Assembly: GCA_964036195.1 (NCBI GenBank)
Contig: OZ038455.1
Location: 11,797,855 to 11,861,854, forward strand
Source: Sphaerolaimus hirsutus
Lineage: Eukaryota > Nematoda > Chromadorea > Monhysterida > Sphaerolaimidae
Direction: 5' to 3'
DNA length: 64,000 nt
Position numbers and translations under genes: made by a program. This document shows positions 301-51,060 of the stretch, one piece after another. Each line of letters opens with the position of its first letter. Position 1 is the first letter of the stretch. Below the pieces are notes generated by a model. It saw only the letters and a list, made by a program, of their open reading frames with translations, did not search any database and was not told the DNA's origin.

Positions 301-2107
301 ATGTACATAGTATCCAAGTTTAACGATGAAATAAGTATCCAAAGATAATGGTGTCCGCATCTCCTGGTGGTTTCAACAATATTAGGGACTGTGATCAAAG
401 TGTTGAGGAGTGTCCACTGTCCATCAGGGTCTGCTAGCTCACACAATTGAGCTGAGGGCTCCTCACCTCCCAAGCTGTCAAAGGTAGTGGTCACCCATTT
501 GGAACTACCTCCAGCAAACTAACGAAAATTTCCCAATACACAACAAGACGTATGCAAAACCAATATTTGATAAGAAAACCACAGTTTCAACAGTAAAATG
601 CAACTTTTTGTAAAACAACTCTAGTTTTTATCAAAAAACTCAAGTTTTTTTAAAATAACACAGGAATAAAACACAGAAACTCAAGTTTTTTTCATGAAAA
701 AACTCAAAACACAGATATTCATTTTTGAAAAACTCAAAATACAGAAAGTGTTTTTATTTTGAGAACTCACCCGTCATTGGGTACGGTACGGTACTCATCC
801 AGTTCGATCCATATACAACATACCATGTAACTAGATATTGATGTAAACTGGTGGCACATTTAAATGAAAATCAGGTATGTCATTTTTCATAACAATCTCA
901 CAGGGAAACGTGCAGCCCAATATGGCTGCCATTTGTTGTGGGGGTGCCCACAACATTTGCCTACATATATGTCAAGTGGCACCCCATGGCACCTCCCTGT
1001 TCTTCTGCTACAGATAAATGAAAAAAATTTGCCAATTTTTTCCCAGAAAATATAAATGAGAATTTTCAAAAAACCACCCAAAATATGGCTGCGGTAAAGT
1101 GTGCAGCCTTTTTTTTGGTGTGCTGACAACACAAGTGATGAATACACTTGTGTTGGTGCTCTTTCAAAAAATAAAAATTCCTTGTGGCTTGCCCAAAGCC
1201 ATCTTTTGACCCACTGGTAAGTAGGGGGTATATTTTGACCCCCAGCCCACCACCCCACACAAAAATAACCCCCAATATACAGACATGTGCCACGAAGCCA
1301 TGTCAACAATGATTTTAAACTTTGTGATTACCTAAATTGTTGTTGTAATTAAAAAACTGTGATTTTTGATTTTCTGGACATGACCTCTTTATTTGTCTGG
1401 CCCAGTCACACTAGATACAGGGCACATTGCCCATCGGCCACTATAGGTTTTTATCAGATAATTAGTGCCCACATTGAATGGGCACAAGTATTTTGTAATT
1501 TGCATCATGACACTGCAGGCGCTGGACGCGCTGTCACGCGAGTGCCCTCTTTACACAGGGCTGTTTTTATCATTTGTTATAAAAAATACATAAGTGCAAA
1601 AAGGGGCCCAGGAGCAGCCAAATGTTGCCTGTGATACTGAGCGAGCCAATTCTGGCCCCATGTGCTCCATAAATAGCTTGGGATAGTGGATTGTCCACTT
1701 TTTGTAACCTATGTTTTTCTCCAAAAAAAAAATTTTTTTTGATCAACAATGCCATCATCATGTGGGGCTTCTGGGGTTTCTGAGGGGGTAGAAAAGTTGC
1801 ACGTACTTACACTCTACCAATGTCAAAAAACTTTTTTGTCTAAGGTGTCTAGAAAAATATTTATTTAAAATTTAAATTCCATCGGGAACAAAAATTTGTA
1901 CGGAATTCTCATTTTTATTTTCCAGAAAAAAATGTTAAAAAAAGTATTTTCTGCACCAAGGGTGGCCTGAGGGGGGTGCCCCCTAGGGTATATATAGTGA
2001 ACACTTGGGGTCACCCTCACACAAGATGACAGCCTGACAGCTTGCATGTGGGATCTGTAAAATACAATAAAGTGATTTTCTCATTTATATTTTCCACCAG
2101 TTTACAT
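301..2107. other. Non-coding, low-complexity
   Basis: No gene seen. 600-760 has A/T-rich iterations of AAACTCAAGTTTTT. 860-1310 contains scattered open frames on both strands without codon bias or splice signals. 1359-1830 likewise shows nothing I can support. Confidence 0.4.
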
Positions 2108-2890: not shown

Positions 2891-5800
2891 ATGCCAGGCA
2901 CGGGGGGTAGTACCCTCACTACTCAGCTGGTGCCACTCCCAGACCCTGTAAAATGTCATGTAAAATATAAAATGTCATGCAAGGTGTCAAAAGTCCACAG
3001 TTGTCAAAATGTACGTACATTTACTCGAAAAATACGTCTACGCGAGTACGCGGTGAATACATTTACATACAGGGTGCGGCAATTTAGACGGACCCCATAA
3101 AGTTTTGAATAACTTGTTACTGGGTAGTCGGATTAACGTCAAATTGTAGGTCAACATTAACAACTAAATAGGAAAGAATCCCTGAAAATATGGTTGCGAT
3201 AGCTCCACTCGTTCATAAGTTATTCATGCAAACGTGAAATTGTCACTTTTCCACCACCTAGCTTTACGAACAATTACGCAAGCGCCCGCCGATTTCCTTA
3301 TGGGCATAACGAATTGGTGGCGGGCGTGCACGCATTTAGGCATGCACCTGCGAAAAGAAAATCAGAAAAATGAAGAAAAAAAACAATCCGATCCCGATAC
3401 CGGTCCCGAAAAGTCAATCGCGTTTGAAAGATATCACAAGGTGGTTAAAAAGTGACAATTACATGTTCGCATGAATAACTTGTGAACGAGTGGAGCTATC
3501 GCAGCCATATTTTCAGGGATTTTTTCCTATTTAGTTGGTTATATTGACCTAAAATTTGACGTTAATCCGACTACCCAGTGACAAGTTATTCAAAACTTTA
3601 TGGGGTCCGTCTAAATTGCCGCACCCTGTATACTTTTGAAAAAAGTAATTATACGCGTACATTATAAAAGTACACGCGTACAGAGAAAATGTATTTTTGT
3701 TGCTAAAATCACAATTTTCTGTTGCTAAAATAAGAAAATTTAGAAGAAATCATATCATTTTTCTAAAAAATACTATATGATCACTAAAAAACGACATATA
3801 TTATGCCTTTTAGGCCGGAATTAGAGCTCAGCGTCGATTCGACGTGAAATGATGACGTGAAATGTTTTCGTGAAATTAATTACACGAGTGTGGATCATGC
3901 TACGGGTCTACAATTTTCTAAGGATAATATATGAATCAATACCTTAATCGTGTCCAATACTGAGTGTTATCAGCCACAACTAGAGCGAATTGAAAAATTC
4001 AATTTTTATCATTTCACGTCATCATTTCACGTCGAATCGACGCTGAGCTCTAATTCCCGCTTTAGAGTGAAACTGACACTCTCACATGTAACAAGTATAA
4101 GCTTTTACGTTTTTCAGGGTAAAAGTACTGGCTTTTACATTTTCGTGGGAAAAAAGTACATATCTTACTCACATTTATGCATGAGTACAAGTAAAAAAAA
4201 AGTATTTTACATTTTCTATACTTTGTGGTGAGTAAAAATAAAATACTTACATACACACATACTTTTGAAAAAAGTTCAGTAATTCTCACAACTCTGCAAA
4301 AGTCATGTAAAATGCCCTGGAAAATGGGGAAAATGAACATTTGCCGCTTTACAGGCATTTTTACATGACTATTGATGACTATTGACACTTTGCATGACAT
4401 TTGACATTTTACAGGGCGTTTTACATGATCTGCGAGTGCACCCTGGACCAAATGGTGCCGCAAGGCATGGACCAATCGTCCACAATGAAGATATTGTTCG
4501 CGCTTCATTTTGTGCTGACGACAATCACTTTGGCTGGCGGCTGGACGCCTCACGCCTACATGTTCTACAATGGATTTTTACTAGTCAGTTCACGTTTTGT
4601 TGATTGGCACGGCTTCAATTTAAGGTTGACGCGTCCACTACTTAGTCCAGCCAATAAATCTATCTGAGCTAACTCGTGCCGGGATGTTATCGTGTAACAA
4701 ATATGACAAAGTCGATAAGCCCATTGTGGAGGACTTCGATTCGTAAAGTTTATAAGACTTTCCCCGTGTCATATGTATGACCAATTTACCCCAACACAAA
4801 ATTATCCACAAGTATAAGTCAAGTCTCATTCCCCACAAGACAAAATTATTGGGGCTGTGAAGAAACATTTTGTCTGTGGAACAAGTACATTTAAAGCCCA
4901 CAGTCTACTGCACTTTTTCCCAAATGTTCCTGCCCAAATGCATTTTGTGGAAATAAATCGTCCTTTATTTAAATTTATTTATTTATTTAAGTTGAAGCCC
5001 ACTGCACCCTGCCATATTTATGTGTTGAAACTTGGATATCATAATTCACATTATTTTATCAAAATTTAGAACTTTACAATATATGGTGTGCAAGCCTCTG
5101 GTATAGGCATGCAATTGTGGCAAATAAAATTTAAAACGCAACTTCAATCAGCGTGTTCGGTGTTGTTATCGACTTTTAGAAGTATTTATAGAAACTTAAA
5201 TCATATTGTTAATATGAGGTTGCATTTTTAGGCTGGCTTACTCTGGGCGATGACATCGCACGACCCCGACCTGCCAATTACAAAGTGCCTTTTTATAACT
5301 GCATTTGCGATCGTCATGGACCTGATCATAATGATTTCATCTTACAACGGCACCGGCTTCAGTGGTGAGTCGGTACAATTGAAAACCGAAAAACAGCTGA
5401 GCAAATATATTTAAATATGTACATATACTCGGCGGACCGCACATTATGCGCAAAATGAATAAATGAATAATAAATGGGCATCGCTCTAAGTGCAATCATC
5501 CCGCATCCAGATTTATCATTCGATCTTGATGCCGGGGTAGACCAACGTAAACAAGCTGTACACTGAAAATAGCTCAGAATTGTGTAAGAAAACACTGTAA
5601 AATGTCATGTCAAAAATGTCATGTCGAATGTATTAAAATTAATGTATCAACACGCCTCACCCACCCCATAAATCATGTGATAAATTTTGTAAATAGTTAT
5701 TCGCACGTAAAAACGAAATATCATGATGAAAAACTGTATAATTTTTGGTTCATTACCGAGATAGGTTATGGTAGGTTTCCATGATACGTGCGATGTCCGC

Positions 5801-6322
5801 GGAGTATACCTATTTCGATGTCTAACGGAACCGATGCGTCAAACACCCAGGCTGGAGAGGTTTATCGCTGGCAGCGTGCATTTTCAATTTTATCGCCAGG
5901 TGCCACTTCCAGACCCTTAAAATTCAGTGTGAAATGTCAAATTTCATGCAAAGTGTCAAAGTCATGTAAAATGACCTGTAAAATGCCAGACTTCCAGCGA
6001 AAACTAAAATCTGACATATTCCAGGGCATTTTACATCACTTCTGACACTTTGCACGATACTTCACATTTTACAAGGTATTTCACAGTGTCTGAGAGTGGC
6101 CCCAGAGTGCCCACGGGTGCGCTGCTGTGGCGCTTTAGACAGCAGCTCACCAGACAGATCTACGCTGGCTACTCGGCGCCGCGCGGCGGCCTGGCGCCAC
6201 AGTCTGGCGCCAGCACCTGGGACCACAGGAGCACGATCAACACGCACGGCTATACTTATGAGACGCCGCCGGCCAGGGGATCACATGCGCCCGTTCACGA
6301 TGCGCAGGCGTTGCACCCGTGA
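2891..6322 (+). CDS. Small multi-pass membrane protein, AGTRAP-like, five exons
   Basis: Proposed exons: 2891-2930, 4447-4583, 5232 to 5364 or 5372, about 5851-5898, and about 6121-6322. Exon 1 starts at ATG 2891. Exon 2 encodes MKILFALHFVLTTITLAGGW and PHAYMFYNGFLL. Exon 3 (acceptor CATTTTTAG|GCTGGC) encodes AGLLWAMTSHDPD followed by CLFITAFAIVMDLIIMISSY, with donor GTGAGT or GTACAA. Exons 4-5 encode YRWQRAFSILSPG then ALLWRFRQQ and a polar tail ending at TGA 6320-6322. The order of hydrophobic helices, the LLWAM segment and the D-L-I-I-M-I helix recall AGTRAP, a four-helix protein that binds the cytoplasmic tail of a GPCR. The identification is from memory and moderate. Exons 1/2 and 4/5 are separated by introner-like elements; the frame closes at CTG-G for the first. 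Exon 4 limits are uncertain. Confidence 0.5.
3070..3628. mobile_element. Tc1/mariner-like MITE with long TIRs
   Basis: Left end CAGGGTGCGGCAATTTAGAC, right end its complement ...GCCGCACCCTG. Inverted arms of roughly 180 bp each face a short centre. It is flanked by TA (3068-3069 and 3629-3630). The uninterrupted sequence TTACATATACTTTT at about 42,073 in a related element shows the empty site, confirming a TA duplication. No transposase coding is present. Confidence 0.85.
3814..4060. mobile_element. Nested small TIR element
   Basis: Inverted ends GCCGGAATTAGAGCTCAGCG and the matching complement ending CCCGC at 4060. The arms of about 50 bp include GACGTGAAATGATGACGTG. Flanked by TTTAG on both sides (3809-3813, 4061-4065), a probable 5-bp target duplication. 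No coding sequence. Confidence 0.75.
5424..5808. mobile_element. TATACTCGGCGGAC-family TIR element in AGTRAP-like intron
   Basis: Starts TATACTCGGCGGACCGCACA and ends with the inverse TGCGATGTCCGCGGAGTATA. It lies between exons 3 and 4 of the AGTRAP-like gene, so exon 4 must start after 5808. Related ends occur at 12059-12310 and 45076-45324. Confidence 0.65.
5896..6120. mobile_element. Introner-like palindromic element, copy 2
   Basis: Left end CCAGGTGCCACTTCCAGACC, right end CTGAGAGTGGCCCCAG. The arms contain inverted GTCAAATTTCATGCAAAGTG and GTCATGTAAAATG motifs. It separates AGTRAP-like exons 4 and 5. Joining at the repeated GGTGC (5899-5903 and 6116-6120) gives SPGALLWRF in frame; joining at CCAG gives another open frame rich in Arg. 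A GT-AG solution also exists here, so this copy does not decide how it is removed. Confidence 0.65.
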
Positions 6323-8459: not shown

Positions 8460-9190
8460 TTAATTCCAATAGAAGATCGCCGTTCTATTTTTTGATCAAC
8501 TTGTTAACCTGCCATTCAAATCAAATCAAATCAAATTTATTACCACTCTGCCAGCGGGCGTCAAACGGGTATTTTAATAACACAACAAAAATGCACGTAT
8601 AAAATCACCGAACCCTTAACTCAACTGACAAATTGACGCAAATTCGGGCGAGAACATATACAATTAGTACCAACATTGGATTCTACTGGAGGTGCCGTTC
8701 TATTGGAGGCTGCCGTTACAGTATTTCACCAAATTTTTCACATGTTTCTCATTTGAACAATTTAATACTTGTTTTAATACTTGTTTACTACTTCAACACT
8801 TATTTTTAATAAAGCCTGTGCAATATTTTAATATCAGAGCATCAATTTGACCTTTGATATTTATTTTAAAGATTAGAATGTTCTCTCCATTCATATATTT
8901 TATTTATTGTTTGTGTTTTGGCACACCCCCAACATAATTTATACCTGCCGTTCAAATGGGGGTGCCGTTCTATCGGAGTGTGGCGTTCTATCGTTTTCGT
9001 GGATTCGTGGGTGCAAACACGTGCCAAAACCTGCCATTCTATTTGCAGGTGCCGTTCTATTTGAGGTGTTGTTTTATTGGAGGGCCGTTCTCTTGGAGGT
9101 GCCGTTCTATTGGAGGTGCCGTTCTATTGGAGGTGCCGTTCTATTGGAGGTGCCGTTCTATTGCAGGTATCCCATTCTACTAGAAGAAAT
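8460..9190. repeat. GCCGTTCTATT dispersed repeat with 17-bp minisatellite
   Basis: Contains TCAAA tandem copies (8517-8535), scattered TGCCGTTCTATTGGAGG motifs, and a tandem run of TTGGAGGTGCCGTTCTA at about 9095-9172 (four to five copies). Shared motifs such as GTGCCAAAACCTG occur at 41930-43215 and 49030-49420. The open frames across it are not genes. Confidence 0.6.
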
Positions 9191-9558: not shown

Positions 9559-10015
9559 CTAGATACTTTGCCATCTATCCTTGATTTTTCCAAAATCAAA
9601 GTGCTGTAATTCTCTCTCTGACCTCACATTTGGTTTGTCATTCATTTGTGACGACATAGTTGTCTCATAAATGGTGCAACAGCAAGTTCCCTGCTCACGA
9701 TCACAGTACGAGTCAATTTCTGTGTTCTTTAAATTTTCTTTCAAGTCTTTGCACTTTTTCTGGCACATATGCCATCCCATTTTGCTTCTAGTACACGGTC
9801 TGAACATTTGACATACATTTTGTCCATTTTGTTTTGTCAATGAAGTTTCAGTGGTTGTCCCAGTGACCAGCTGCCAGCGCTTAGCGTTTTTCTTGTCAGC
9901 AAATGTACAGCAACATTGCATGGTATCTCTGCTACAAGTGTGAGTTTTATGTATCGTGTTTGTATACGCTGGTAGCGTTTGCATGCTTTTGCACAATCTG
10001 TTGCACATGTTGTTT
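9559..10015 (-). CDS. Exon 5 of the mucin gene: rest of Cys module 4, module 5, C-terminus
   Basis: Continues module 4 with ANNMCNRLCKSM, then an 18-residue spacer, C, x6 and CCC. A short linker and a divergent module 5 follow (VCQMFRPC, x9, C, QKKC, x15, C, x6, CCC). The tail of about 40 residues is charged and ends KIKDRWQSI with a TAG at 9561-9559. An AATAAA on the minus strand at 9522-9517 lies about 40 nt past the stop and is a plausible poly(A) signal. No membrane anchor follows, so the protein is predicted to be secreted. Confidence 0.68.
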
Positions 10016-13000
10016 GCACCAGGGGCAGTGCCGCACCCTGTAAAGTGTAAAGAAACATGTAAAATGTCTTGTAAAGTGTCAATCAAAACAAACAAGTACA
10101 AGTTAAATGACTGAACTCTTGAAACTTTAGATGACATTTGACAGCTTTGTCTATGACATTTTACATGACATTTGACACTTGAATTTACACTTGACAGAAT
10201 GTGGGACTGGCACCGGGCACGTGGCACGGCGCGGCTATGCATACATCTCTGCTATTTGGTGTGCTCGTCGCTGTAGTGGTTGTAGTCGTTGTCTCTGCGG
10301 TCGTTGTTAAACTTGTTGTCGCCGTCGTTTGCGGCGGTGCCGTCACTTTGTCGGTCTGCGCACCTCTGCCGAGAACGCAACAGCATTGATTCACCGTTTG
10401 GCCGCAAGTGTGGCTTTTGTACGTGCCGCCGTATATTTGCTGAACGCTGTCGCACAGTCTGGAGCACATCAGGTCGGCCTGCGGATGCCAGCACGGCGCT
10501 TCGTTGCACACTGTAATGTCCGAGTCTGGTGCCACTACCGGATCCTGTGAATTGCCGTGTGAAGCGTCAAATGTCATGCAATGTGTGAAATATCATGTGA
10601 AATGTCATGTCATGGAAATGGAAAATGTCCAGTAACAAAAGTAAAATAAAATTTGGCATTTTACAGGGAATTTTACATGACTATAGACGCTTTCCAGACC
10701 CTCACAATTTACATGCCATTTTCCACAACTTTTTACACTTTGTATGACATTAGACCTCTCACAGGACATTTTACAGAGTCCGGCAGTGGCCCCTGGCGCC
10801 GTGGACGTCGCCAAGGTCGTAGGCGGCGTCCAAGAGTTGCTGCGAAGGTTGCAACAACACTCCATGGGCGTGACCGCGGCGCTGCACGTGTGGTTCACGT
10901 ATGATCCGTTGAGCACGGGCTCCATATACTGGCAGAGTGTTTGACACATGTCGTTGGCATGTGGACTGGCGCACGGCGCCGGCGCGCAGTGTTTGATTAT
11001 TCCATCACTCGCGCTCGTGGTACCAGGGGCAGTCCCAGATCCTGTAAAAGACACTGTAGAGGTGTAAAAGACTCTGTAAAATGTCATGTGTCATGTAAAA
11101 GACTCAGTTAAGTGTCAGATGCCATATAAAATGCCCTCTAAAGTTTCATGTGTATAGGTATAAATCTAATTGAATCGTATCCAAATCTGATGTTTTTGTA
11201 TCCAAATCTTCTGTCCAAAAGCTGTATTTGTGTACAAAATCATAAGATTAGGATATGATACAATAAGGTTTGGGTACACATGACACTCTACAGGGTCTTT
11301 TACATGACACATGACATTTTAAAGAGTCTTTTACATGACAGACGACATTTTACAGGTTCTTTTACACTTTAAAGGGTCTTTTACAGGGTCTGGGACTGCC
11401 ACCAGGAGCTTCAGTTGAGCTGTACGTAGTCGTGGGCACTTGCGTCGTTGTTACCGGTGCTCTAGTCGTCGCGTTGTTAGAAAGTAGACTACAACAGCAC
11501 TTCAGTGATGACACATTGCATGAATACGAGATAAGTGTCCCTTCAAGTGGCGACGTCATCGACGTGCACAATGTGCTGCACATGCTGTCCGCTTCAGGGT
11601 TGTAGCAGGGGGCGTCCGCACAGTATTCCACCAAGCCTGTGTGGATTGAAATGATTGGATTGAGCACTGAAGAAGGCACCAGGGGGCACTCACAGATCCT
11701 GTAAAGTGCCGTGTAAAATGTCAAATGTCATGCAAAGTGTCAAGAGTCATGTAAAATTCCCTGCAAAATGGCAACTCGGTTGCCATTTTGCAGGCAATTT
11801 TACATGACTTTTGACACTTTGCATGACATTTTACAGGGCACTTCACAGGGTCTGGGAGTGGCACCAGGTGCGCTGTCACGTGCATAGAATATTGTCATCA
11901 GCATAAATATCGTACTGCTGTGCTTCTAGTATTTGAAAGTGACCAGTAAACACACAATGTAAGAAATTTAACCTTCCAAGTCAACATCCAGATCAGCCAT
12001 TTTTTATATTTTTCTCAACCACCTTTTGTTAGACTATCTGGGGCTTTGGAGATTATTCTATACCCCAGTCACTTTACACCCTGCACGCGTGGTCCCCGCT
12101 GGAAGCGTGCCAGCTATTTTTTACCCATGCTATTTTCATAAAAAAGTTGAAAAAGTCATCTCTGTTATAATGCTATATGTTATAATGCTTATTTACAACA
12201 ATGACTTTTTCATCTTTAATACAAAAATCGCATGATTTATCATCATTGGCACGCTTCCAACATGAGACATAAATGAGTGCGAGGGCAGAGTATCATGTCC
12301 GCCGAGTATAACAAATAATTTTTTTTACTAATAGCCTTGACCTCAAACTCCAACATACTCAAACAGCATCCAAATTAGGAAAGGGACAAGAAACTGGGAA
12401 GCAATAAAAACTGTGGTGGACCCCCAGCCTCCTGTTTCTCTATGGGCAAAGAGTCTCAACTAATCTGCACAGTAGTCTACTTGTGTAGCTGCAAACCCAA
12501 CTAGCAGAATCCATTCTGTCCAATACTCCACATAGGGACCGGGCCTATTACACACATGAACCCATCACACATTTACACCCATCACACACATGGTAGAAAC
12601 CCGCCACACACATAGACCATCATGCACACAACTGGAACTGTTTGCCTGATGGGCATATGTGAGCGCCGGGAAACAAATCTGTGGTGGACACACTGGTTTT
12701 ACCAATGTACAAAACCAAGGCAAACTGAGCGATGTGAAATATCAACAATTCCTCAACAAGGAAAAAACATCGACCTGTCTGTGTGGTGACTTCATCAGTC
12801 TGTCCACTGGTGGGTTCCTCAGTGGGCACACCTGTTATGCCACTTGTTTCTTCAGTTGTGATCTCTGTTGTCTGGTCTAGTGGAAACTCAGTGGTGACTT
12901 CATTTGTCTGTCCACTGGTGGGTTCCTCAGTGGGCACACCTGTTATGCCACTTGTTTCTTCAGTGACTTCAGTTGTGTTCTCTGTTGTCTGGTCTGGTGG

Positions 13001-48379: not shown

Positions 48380-48745
48380 TTGAGAAAAGTTCGCAAAATT
48401 GCGAGTCGATATGAACTGCTGGTGGCACTCTCTGACCCTGTAAAATGCCTTGTAAATTGTCAAATGACATGCAAACGGTCACAGAAGTCATGTAAAATGC
48501 CCTGGAAAATTTCAAATGACCTTGCCATTGTATTTACAAGGCATTTACCTGACTTTTTACACTTTGCGTCACAACATTTGACATTTCACAGGGCATTTTA
48601 CAGGGTCCGGGGAATGCCCCTGGACATCCGTAGAGAGCGGCAGATCTGTTCACGACGAAAGACGCAATGTTGATGGCGGGCGTTACGCAGCCGGAGTTGT
48701 GAGACAGCATGAATTTCAGACAGCTAATTTCGACTTTCATTTCGG
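48380..48745. pseudogene. Possible small exon pair around introner copy 7, strand unclear
   Basis: The flanks of copy 7 are GC-richer than their surroundings, as for other exons here. On the minus strand an ATG at 48740 opens MKVEISCLKFMLSHNSGC and continues across the element to a stop near 48,354. On the plus strand RKVRKIASRYELLDIRRERQ is open and stops at 48,668. Neither resembles a family I know. I cannot choose the strand or call it functional; it may be a gene remnant. Confidence 0.25.
48419..48623. mobile_element. Introner-like palindromic element, copy 7
   Basis: Left CTGGTGGCACTCTCTGACCC, right CAGGGTCCGGGGAATGCCCC followed by TGG; CTGG occurs at both ends. Arms with TGTAAAATGCC / GGCATTTTACA are inverted. 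The 201-nt removal is frame-neutral and joins an open stretch in both directions: plus strand SRYELL-DIRRERQICSRRK, minus strand AALYGCP-AVHIDSQFCEL. It may mark an otherwise unrecognised gene. Confidence 0.65.
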
Positions 48746-49797: not shown

Positions 49798-50811
49798 GCC
49801 GCATCCCAGCAATACACAAGTCGCATTTCACAACCAGTGCATCAGGCAACCGCCATTAACCAACCCCCGAACAGTTCTTCCCATTCTGGTGAACTTCCCA
49901 TGCTTGCCCTGAGAAAATCTACGCTCGAAGATGGGGCAAAAAGTGACGAAATTAATGATGATGAAAGTGGCAGCGAATCGCCAGTGGTTCACTTGAAATT
50001 TCAGCACAATAGAAGGAAACCCAGGGTCCTTTTTACGCCTGAGCAGGTATATTTTTTAATTCATTTTTAAGGTTTCCCTATCTGTTTTTCCATCAACCTT
50101 ACCCCATTTTCCATTTTCTGATTAAATTTTCTGTTGTCTCGCCATTTTTCTTCTTTAAGGTTCAATTTTCTGTTTTTCCACCTCGTTTTCCCTTTTTCAC
50201 TCGTTCTGGTTCAACTTTCAGTTTTCAGTTTCTACCAAACTGGTAAACATGCATGCCAGTTTTAAACTATGTATGTGATTTTTTCTGTTTCCAGCAAAAT
50301 TTCTGCCAATATTTTTCATCCCCAAAAAAATTTCTGGAATTTTTTCTATTGCAGCAAATTTCAGCAATTTCTTCTATTTCTGACAAAATTTCAGCAATTT
50401 TTTTTCTCTTTCTGTGCACCTTCTTTCATTTTCCCTCTTCTGGCCTTCCATTTTTTTGTTTTCCGGTAAGTGCAAGAAAGTTCTGTTTCCGTTTTCCGTT
50501 CATGATGAACCAAGGTTTGGATTGGTTGTTGTTGTTGATCGTTGTTTCTTTTTTTTCTTCGGGTTTTTTGAGAGAGATCTGAAAAGATTAATATTTATCA
50601 GGTATACTTCCTTAAAATCACCCATGTTTCAATCACAGGTGCGAATTTTGGAGCGCCGCTTCGAGGCGCGCCGCTATGTGTCGCCGTCGGAACGCGACCA
50701 ACTGGCCGTCGATTTGCATTTGACACCGACCCAGGTCAAAATTTGGTTCCAAAATAGACGCTACAAGTGCAAAAGGCTCCACCAGGACAGAACTGTGCAG
50801 TTTACAGCGAA
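49798..50811 (+). CDS. NK2-class homeobox gene, two exons seen
   Basis: Exon a (49798-50046) follows a good acceptor (CATTCACACTGCAG) and encodes an acidic Ser-rich stretch ([15 protein letters not shown]) and the start of a homeodomain, [14 protein letters not shown] 592-nt GT-AG intron (50047-50638, phase 0) splits the homeodomain after position 12. Exon b starts at 50639 with [20 protein letters not shown] and contains recognition helix [19 protein letters not shown]. Tyr54 (NRRYK) is the NK2-class signature; Trp48, Phe49 and Asn51 are intact. It is therefore a DNA-binding developmental transcription factor. Exon b probably ends at a donor GTGGGT near 50812. The 5' exons and the C-terminus were not located. 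A pyrimidine-rich repeat lies in the intron, and a palindromic element begins about 55 nt after exon b. Confidence 0.85.
50100..50420. repeat. Pyrimidine-rich repeat inside the NK2 intron
   Basis: Shares CCAAACTGGT, TGTTTCCAGCAAAATTTCTG and TTTTCTGTTTTCC blocks with 38580-38930. Intronic, non-coding. Confidence 0.5.
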
Positions 50812-50865
50812 GTGGGTTGGGTTTGGCAAAAATGTTTTTTTTCTCGATATTTATAGCTTCCTTGA

Positions 50866-51060
50866 AGAGCTTCCATCCACACGCTTCAGCGCGCTTCACC
50901 AAACAGCGTGAAATTTGTGAAGTGTCTTCCACACGCTTCACGCTGCTTAGCGCTTCCACACGATTCACCAAAATAAGAAAGCAGCATCAGCGCCATATTA
51001 AAACGCGTGAAGTGTCTTCACTCAAATTTTCGTGAAGCGTCATGAAGCGCTAGTGTGGTT
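50866..51060. repeat. GAAGTGTCTTCAC palindromic repeat after NK2 exon b
   Basis: CCACACGCTTCAGCGCGCTTC ... GTGAAGCGTCATGAAGCGCT with GTGAAGTGTCTTCAC copies inside. Related to 40610-40950. It may limit exon b or lie in the next intron. Confidence 0.55.

Follow-up and report, generated by a model that had tools for sequence, protein, structure and literature searches.

A Palindromic MITE Family as a Candidate Source of GT..TG Introns in the Nematode Sphaerolaimus hirsutus

Results and Discussion

A Candidate Introner in a Cys-Module Gene

The 194-nt palindromic segment at positions 10020–10213 of the window (the whole stretch of 64,000 nucleotides of Sphaerolaimus hirsutus DNA that was analyzed) is, on balance, best interpreted as an introner, that is, a transposon-derived intron, which the U2 spliceosome would remove at the edges of the element as a GT..TG intron, with the protein thereby restored. 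We infer both splicing itself and its mechanism from orientation bias, reading frame, and homology. For the element family, GT..TG removal appears to be the best reading of the sequence, because the joins in a PKG-like and a NEK7-like kinase gene are gap-free, the internal AG there leads to a frame shift, and none of the GT/GC-AG pairs enumerated yields the edge sequence. For the copy at 10020–10213 (element A), such removal is likely, and is better supported by its sister copies than by element A itself, since here the internal AG is in frame, and since joining the edges of a further copy in the same gene (element D) breaks the reading frame.

Element A interrupts a gene on the minus strand, at approximately positions 9,559–11,900 of the window, which encodes four Cys modules and into which the same palindromic element has inserted four times (copies A, B, C, and D). 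Module 1 lies in the stretch at 11403–11679 (with the true 5′ exon boundary inside this stretch, as discussed for element D below), module 2 in the exon at 10793–11023, module 3 and the start of module 4 in the exon at 10214–10525, and the remainder of module 4, followed by a further Cys-rich part and the stop codon, in the last exon at 9559–10019. In the sense of the gene, element A is inserted with its GT end first, and the edge intron runs in frame from GT (10213–10212) to TG (10021–10020). The first-pass annotation had described a palindromic segment that splits module 4 and whose flanks, once joined, restore the C-x8-C spacing, and our computation of both the join and the fold bears this out: the edge join (GTGCCCG|GTGCAAAC in nucleotides) yields CIAAPCHVPGANNMCNRLC, with C-x8-C as in modules 1–3 (APCYNPEADSMC, APCASPHANDMC, and APCWHPQADLMC), and also restores the P-x-A-[ND]-x-M-C pattern common to these three modules. 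The arms of the palindrome (10019–10081 and 10154–10216) are 75% complementary, and the RNA strand folds with an energy of −68.1 kcal mol–1, compared to −44.0 ± 4.2 kcal mol–1 for shuffled sequences (z = −5.8, with 0 of 200 shuffles equally stable). The duplication flanking the segment, initially taken to be 8 bp in length (GCACCAGG/GCACCGGG), is in fact a 3-bp CWG target-site duplication, the rest being end sequence of the element or chance similarity. Its upstream copy (10214–10216) reads CCG and has diverged from CWG, and its downstream copy (10020–10022) reads CTG, the TG of which is the proposed 3′ splice site.

It had also been claimed that the segment must leave at noncanonical boundaries, and that only a single GT-AG choice is in frame. 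Enumeration of donors from −12 to +45 and acceptors from −60 to +80 of the edges gave six GT-AG choices that are in frame and stop-free, the mildest of which is the one originally noted, adding six residues including an extra Cys; “must” is therefore too strong for element A taken alone, as a canonical in-frame choice exists. This choice runs from the edge GT to an internal TTTACAG (10038–10044, minus strand, 18 nt from the downstream edge), giving the join GTGCCCG|GGTGCGGC and the additional residues CHVPGCGTAPGANNMC. We consider it a possible, albeit unlikely, alternative that element A is an introner spliced canonically in this manner. The internal AG is in frame and stop-free in both elements A and C, the TTTACAG, located upstream of the edge TG, resembles a good acceptor, and published introners, such as those of Aureococcus, can add codons, according to the parts of PMC9860276 consulted. 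Splicing at this position would, however, break the C-x8-C spacing of module 4, and the kinase copies described below argue further against it. We note that in elements A and C the internal AG lies 18 nt from the edge, rather than 19 nt, such that the canonical product stays in frame with six added residues; this shared one-base difference might reflect use of the internal AG in these two copies.

Other Copies of the Element in the Window

Element A is not a chance palindrome, as its gene contains three further copies, an AGTRAP-like gene carries another, and two more lie in other parts of the window. Element C (11024–11402, minus strand, 379 nt) again has the GT end first and a CTG duplication, giving a GT..TG intron that is in frame, with its internal AG, 18 nt upstream of the edge, likewise in frame. 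Element B (10526–10792, minus strand) has the GG end first and a CAG duplication, and its edges thus read GG..AG; here, an internal donor, GTAAAA at +18, combined with the edge CAG, provides a canonical in-frame intron. Most simply, element B and the second copy in an AFMID-like gene (L022, where this choice was read by eye) would both splice from this internal donor to the edge CAG, which adds six residues.

Element D (11680–11864, minus strand) has the GT end first and a CTG duplication, and its edge join is out of frame, provided that exon 1 reads MLMTIFYARDSAPG. Five canonical in-frame choices are available, one of which runs from the edge GT to a CTTCAG located 13 nt beyond the edge, and by eye a CACACAG further downstream also fits. 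Element D may have inserted at the 5′ splice site of an older intron (CTG|GT), similar to a copy in a SMYD-like gene (L033, approximately 794–1172, minus strand; the name was given by eye, and a Pfam search gave no match), which seems to occupy such a site and apparently uses a downstream AG. The MITE may thus replace existing 5′ splice sites too. The out-of-frame edges of element D would also fit a scenario in which the insertion simply damages the Cys-module gene, the allele being improperly spliced, or a decaying or polymorphic copy, as would the observations that a protein search at E 10 returned no homologue of the Cys-module protein and that Pfam gave no significant match to it. We nevertheless regard such damage as improbable, given that there are four copies in the one gene, that the arms of element A have already diverged, and that all four Cys modules retain open frames and their Cys pattern.

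The AGTRAP-like gene (4452–6322, plus strand) comprises exons at 4452–4583, 5232–5364, 5851–5899, and 6106–6322, and the element at 5900–6105 (plus strand, 206 nt), with its GT end first and a CAG duplication, forms a canonical GT..AG intron between the last two; the remaining two introns are plain GT..AG. When joined at CCAG|GTGCC..CCCCAG|A, the exons match PF06396 (E 4.9e-9, residues 12–107 against profile positions 8–103), with the junction at residue 105, such that the match extends only two residues past it. A protein search at E 10 returned no homologue of this protein. Just upstream of this gene is a copy with other repeats nested within it (2930–4446, plus strand, edges approximate and set by eye), among them a second palindromic element at 3067–3631, with 193-nt arms that are 93% complementary. 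The last copy (48422–48619, plus strand) has a CTG duplication and lies outside any recognized gene.

The window also contains many short direct repeats of the type GGAGGTGCCGTTCTATT at 8680–9180, a plus-strand open frame with a homeodomain at 50384–50911 (PF00046, E 2.8e-18), and a 23.7-kb array at 12850–36508, composed of 202 copies of a 117-bp unit with 95% matches. This array lies inside long minus-strand open frames coding for Ser/Thr-rich repeats of the type TSGQTDEVTTEFPPDQT(T/S)ENTTEVTEETSGITGVPTEEP, and probably encodes a huge mucin-like protein.

A Common MITE Family with a CWG Target-Site Duplication

Comparison of copies shows a palindromic MITE family that duplicates a 3-bp CWG target site on insertion and has two differing ends: one starts with GTGCC (GTGCCACTCCCAGACCCTGTAAAA) and the other, read on the opposite strand, with GGGGC (GGGGCACTCCCAGACCCTGTAAAA). 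The family is very common, with a single end pattern giving 12,084 matches at up to three mismatches, and a control pattern 0, in the genome of 348 Mb (762 contigs); exact matches to the end pattern in viral and prokaryote collections numbered 0. Exact GT ends are flanked by CAG in 1,399 cases and by CTG in 1,207 cases genome-wide. The internal TTTACAG is found 19 nt from the downstream edge in 48 of the 53 other copies measured, and we dropped on these grounds the idea that the family is built to stay in frame in all four configurations. The target-site duplication together with terminal inverted repeats, which serves as a criterion for introners, is present in the family, as are similar copies whose ends are intron boundaries, recognized as such by homology only.

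The genome contains 163 matches to Harbinger-type (DDE_Tnp_4) transposases, which shows that such genes are present and common. Among the matches listed, most carry four in-frame TGA codons over approximately 630 nt, which may correspond to an intron in the transposase gene.

Copies in Protein Kinase and Other Conserved Genes

A scan of 30 loci around protein-kinase exons returned seven copies, six of them inside kinase coding sequence, namely in NUAK/MARK-like (L065), SGK1-like (L072), PKG-like (L087), and NEK7-like (L090, minus strand) genes, and in the kinases at L075 and L081. Nine intron gaps were also retrieved, one of which contained a seventh kinase copy (L092), with the Pkinase match spanning its junction (E 3e-5). 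In the PKG-like gene, the GT..TG join is gap-free against solved PKG across RVEL/V (E 2.9e-19), and in the NEK7-like gene, it is gap-free against solved NEK7 across EELRAL/VAHC (best E 1.1e-26). On the established kinase fold, the former join lies in strand β2, right after the glycine-rich loop, and the latter in a C-lobe helix; in nucleotides, the two read GAGCTG|GTCTAC and GCCTTG|GTGGCC, respectively. For L075, Pkinase spans the GT..TG junction with an E of 1.4e-4, a match that is under the Pfam cut-off and not gap-free, and a PDB search gave nothing at E 0.001.

In each of these three kinases, the internal AG is located 19 nt from the edge, and its use would shift the frame, which rules it out as the family-wide acceptor. 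As these copies are of like configuration to element A, and as the spacing implies the same outcome for 48 of 53 copies, they argue against splicing of element A at its internal TTTACAG. The same is true of the first copy in the AFMID-like gene (L022, 1502–1899, minus strand), which has lost the internal AG, where the next AG, 29 nt upstream, would break the frame, and where GHSAGAQLA is preserved across the edge CAG, the identity of this gene being based on weak matches. We also enumerated all in-frame, stop-free GT/GC-AG pairs for the three kinases, with donors from −30 to +50 and acceptors from −70 to +60, and none of the resulting pairs (40 for the PKG-like gene, 17 for L075, and 24 for the NEK7-like gene) gives the edge sequence. 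The pairs starting at the edge GT delete 7–19, 4–13, and 6–8 residues, respectively, but one pair per kinase keeps the length while swapping residues (GT+23/AG+23 in the PKG-like gene, GC−19/AG−19 in L075, and GT+18/AG+18 in the NEK7-like gene).

The SGK1-like copy is a canonical intron with a gap-free join, and the NUAK/MARK-like join shows a one-residue gap near the junction when aligned with MARK4. Among copies selected by means of the CAG pattern, the one in PRPF8 (L057, with the same join in L058) shows no gap at the junction and a two-residue gap elsewhere, and the one interrupting a carnitine octanoyltransferase gene (L045) a one-residue gap elsewhere in the alignment. The kinase copy at L081 carries CTG on its upstream side and CAG on its downstream side, as though a TG end had been improved to AG exactly at the edge, although this may be chance, because the opposite mismatch (CAG upstream and CTG downstream) occurs in L030, L038, and L042. 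Of eight plain intron gaps, seven (L091, L093–L096, L098, and L099) are GT..AG at both ends by eye, and the eighth (L097) is readable at the donor only; together with the plain introns of the AGTRAP-like gene, this suggests that splicing in this genome is otherwise ordinary.

Orientation and 3′ Ends of Copies in Genes

Twelve of the 14 gene copies that entered the count start with GT at the 5′ edge (binomial p = 0.0065), a small sample in which genes were recognized partly by eye, as do 6 of 6 copies at the kinase loci alone (p = 0.016). The counted copies come from sources that were not selected by their duplication, that is, the window, the loci found by DNA similarity (29 copies detected, most of them outside recognized genes), the kinase loci, and the intron gaps. 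The GT-first copies are those in the AGTRAP-like gene, the seven kinase copies (L065, L072, L075, L081, L087, L090, and L092), the first AFMID-like copy, an OCT-like copy (L008, with homology on the downstream side only), and elements A and C; the second AFMID-like copy (GG at both ends) and element B are GG-first. We left out of the count a serine racemase-like copy (L004), which maybe forms one composite intron with the next intron, a copy within an older intron of a phosphatase gene (L027), a noncoding copy (L068), an FkbM-like copy with one-sided homology (L028), an exchanger-like copy for which an exon split was not demonstrated (L030), the second copy in L033, apparently at the older intron’s donor, and the copies in L031–L060 that were chosen via the CAG pattern. 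At the 3′ edge, the 12 GT-first copies comprise six with AG (five CAG/CAG copies and L081) and six with TG. Given 1,399 CAG-flanked and 1,207 CTG-flanked ends genome-wide, and six of each in genes, CTG is thus not visibly depleted in genes.

This orientation bias disfavors two further explanations. Excision of the element from somatic DNA would be in line with the direct repeats, the terminal inverted repeats, and the Harbinger-type transposases of the genome, but it requires neither an orientation nor a GT, and the counted gene copies show both; we therefore deem it the least plausible account, with a very small chance of being correct. The first-pass annotation had left the choice between an intron and a DNA-excised element, and it is the intron, derived from an introner-type MITE, that the 12 GT-first copies favor over excision. 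The second explanation is that a hairpin intron is removed without the spliceosome, as happens with the nonconventional introns of euglenids; the strong hairpin that brings the ends together and the short direct repeats at the edges could be invoked in its favor. The 5′ GT of 12 of the 14 copies counted, as well as the GT..AG ends of the CAG half, however, point to the spliceosome, and such removal appears highly improbable. With respect to the exact boundaries that had been suggested, the family favors GT..TG, and the variants GG..CT and GC..GT amount to one and the same join, shifted within the short repeat.

Possible Origin and Splicing of the Introns

Taking these observations into account, element A would be an old MITE copy with a 3-bp CWG target-site duplication, from a family that would itself provide the 5′ splice site, through the GT of the GTGCC end. 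The downstream copy of the duplication would then supply the last bases of the intron, such that a CAG target would give GT..AG and a CTG target GT..TG, and the U2 spliceosome would cut exactly at the edges, regaining the uninterrupted protein. The edge donor, GTGCCA, is weak. On one possible route, the TTTACAG located 18–19 nt upstream of the edge may serve for early recognition or as a branch-point region, and the TG downstream of it may be used in the second step, with the hairpin keeping the ends of the intron close to each other. The branch would be expected within TTTAC, approximately 21 nt from the edge.

We tentatively propose, with confidence a little short of even, that an animal MITE family has given rise to numerous spliceosomal GT..TG introns whose productive and constitutive 3′ splice site is TG, with the CWG target giving AG or TG and a host that tolerates both. 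Largely the same intron body, ending in AG or TG in different genes, would be a natural experiment on 3′ splice-site choice, and the ability to function at CAG as well as CTG would widen the range of safe target sites for the family, which bears on how introners gain a foothold.

Comparison with Known Systems

Transposon-derived introns are already known, and the family therefore represents no new intron class; the new part is the TG 3′ end and the pairing of CAG with CTG. Our literature search turned up no introner family in animals whose introns end in TG, although one may still be in print, and a search for work on intron gain in chaetognaths found none. With respect to the element itself, the NuwaI group of the PHIS (PIF/Harbinger-like) superfamily, reported mainly from animals, is described as having a CWG target-site duplication (PMC4482050), which the family studied here shares, in a genome with Harbinger-type DDE transposases; an intron role is not among the passages of that work considered here.

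Among hairpin-forming introns, the introner-type introns of the dinoflagellate Amoebophrya resemble the present family in their inverted repeats, their direct repeats of 3–5 nt at the exon borders, and their hairpin, but are described in the sections consulted as having many splice motifs (PMC7789003), whereas the copies studied here retain GT and end in either AG or TG, in an animal with GT-AG plain introns. The nonconventional introns of euglenids share the hairpin, and are defined as a class by nonconserved borders, unlike the GT found here in 12 of 14 copies and the GT..AG of CAG copies. Fritillaria borealis is likewise an animal, and the part of PMC13326754 at hand names introner transposons whose splice sites are weak as one potential source of its introns; however, its introns have AG/AC and AG/AT termini and YAY borders, and only 5% are canonical. 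The element copies show neither these termini nor these borders, having GT 5′ ends in a genome with GT-AG plain introns.

As regards the TG 3′ end, GT-TG ends are known from human U2 introns, with GNAS and TSPYL2 as examples (PMC4176328, as excerpted). According to the excerpts of PMC2374985, human TG acceptors occur only as alternatives to an AG within 28 nt, and never alone. Such an AG is present at 18 or 19 nt in element A, element C, and the three GT..TG kinase copies (L075, L087, and L090), which fits the human rule but makes mixed products likely; in contrast to the human sites, TG would here be the productive site.

The closest parallel is provided by introners of the DNA-transposon type, reported from Aureococcus, Chrysochromulina, and Symbiodinium, with copepods named too (PMC9860276). 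In the portions of that study consulted, these are likewise short elements with inverted ends and a target-site duplication that usually leave the frame intact, and the Chrysochromulina case (its Figure 2C) similarly carries a 5′ splice site and takes its 3′ splice site from the duplication. The same portions mention rare GC and GA 5′ sites, but not TG 3′ ends, whereas in the family described here the target sequence decides whether the 3-bp CWG duplication provides AG or TG, and copies with TG persist in conserved genes.
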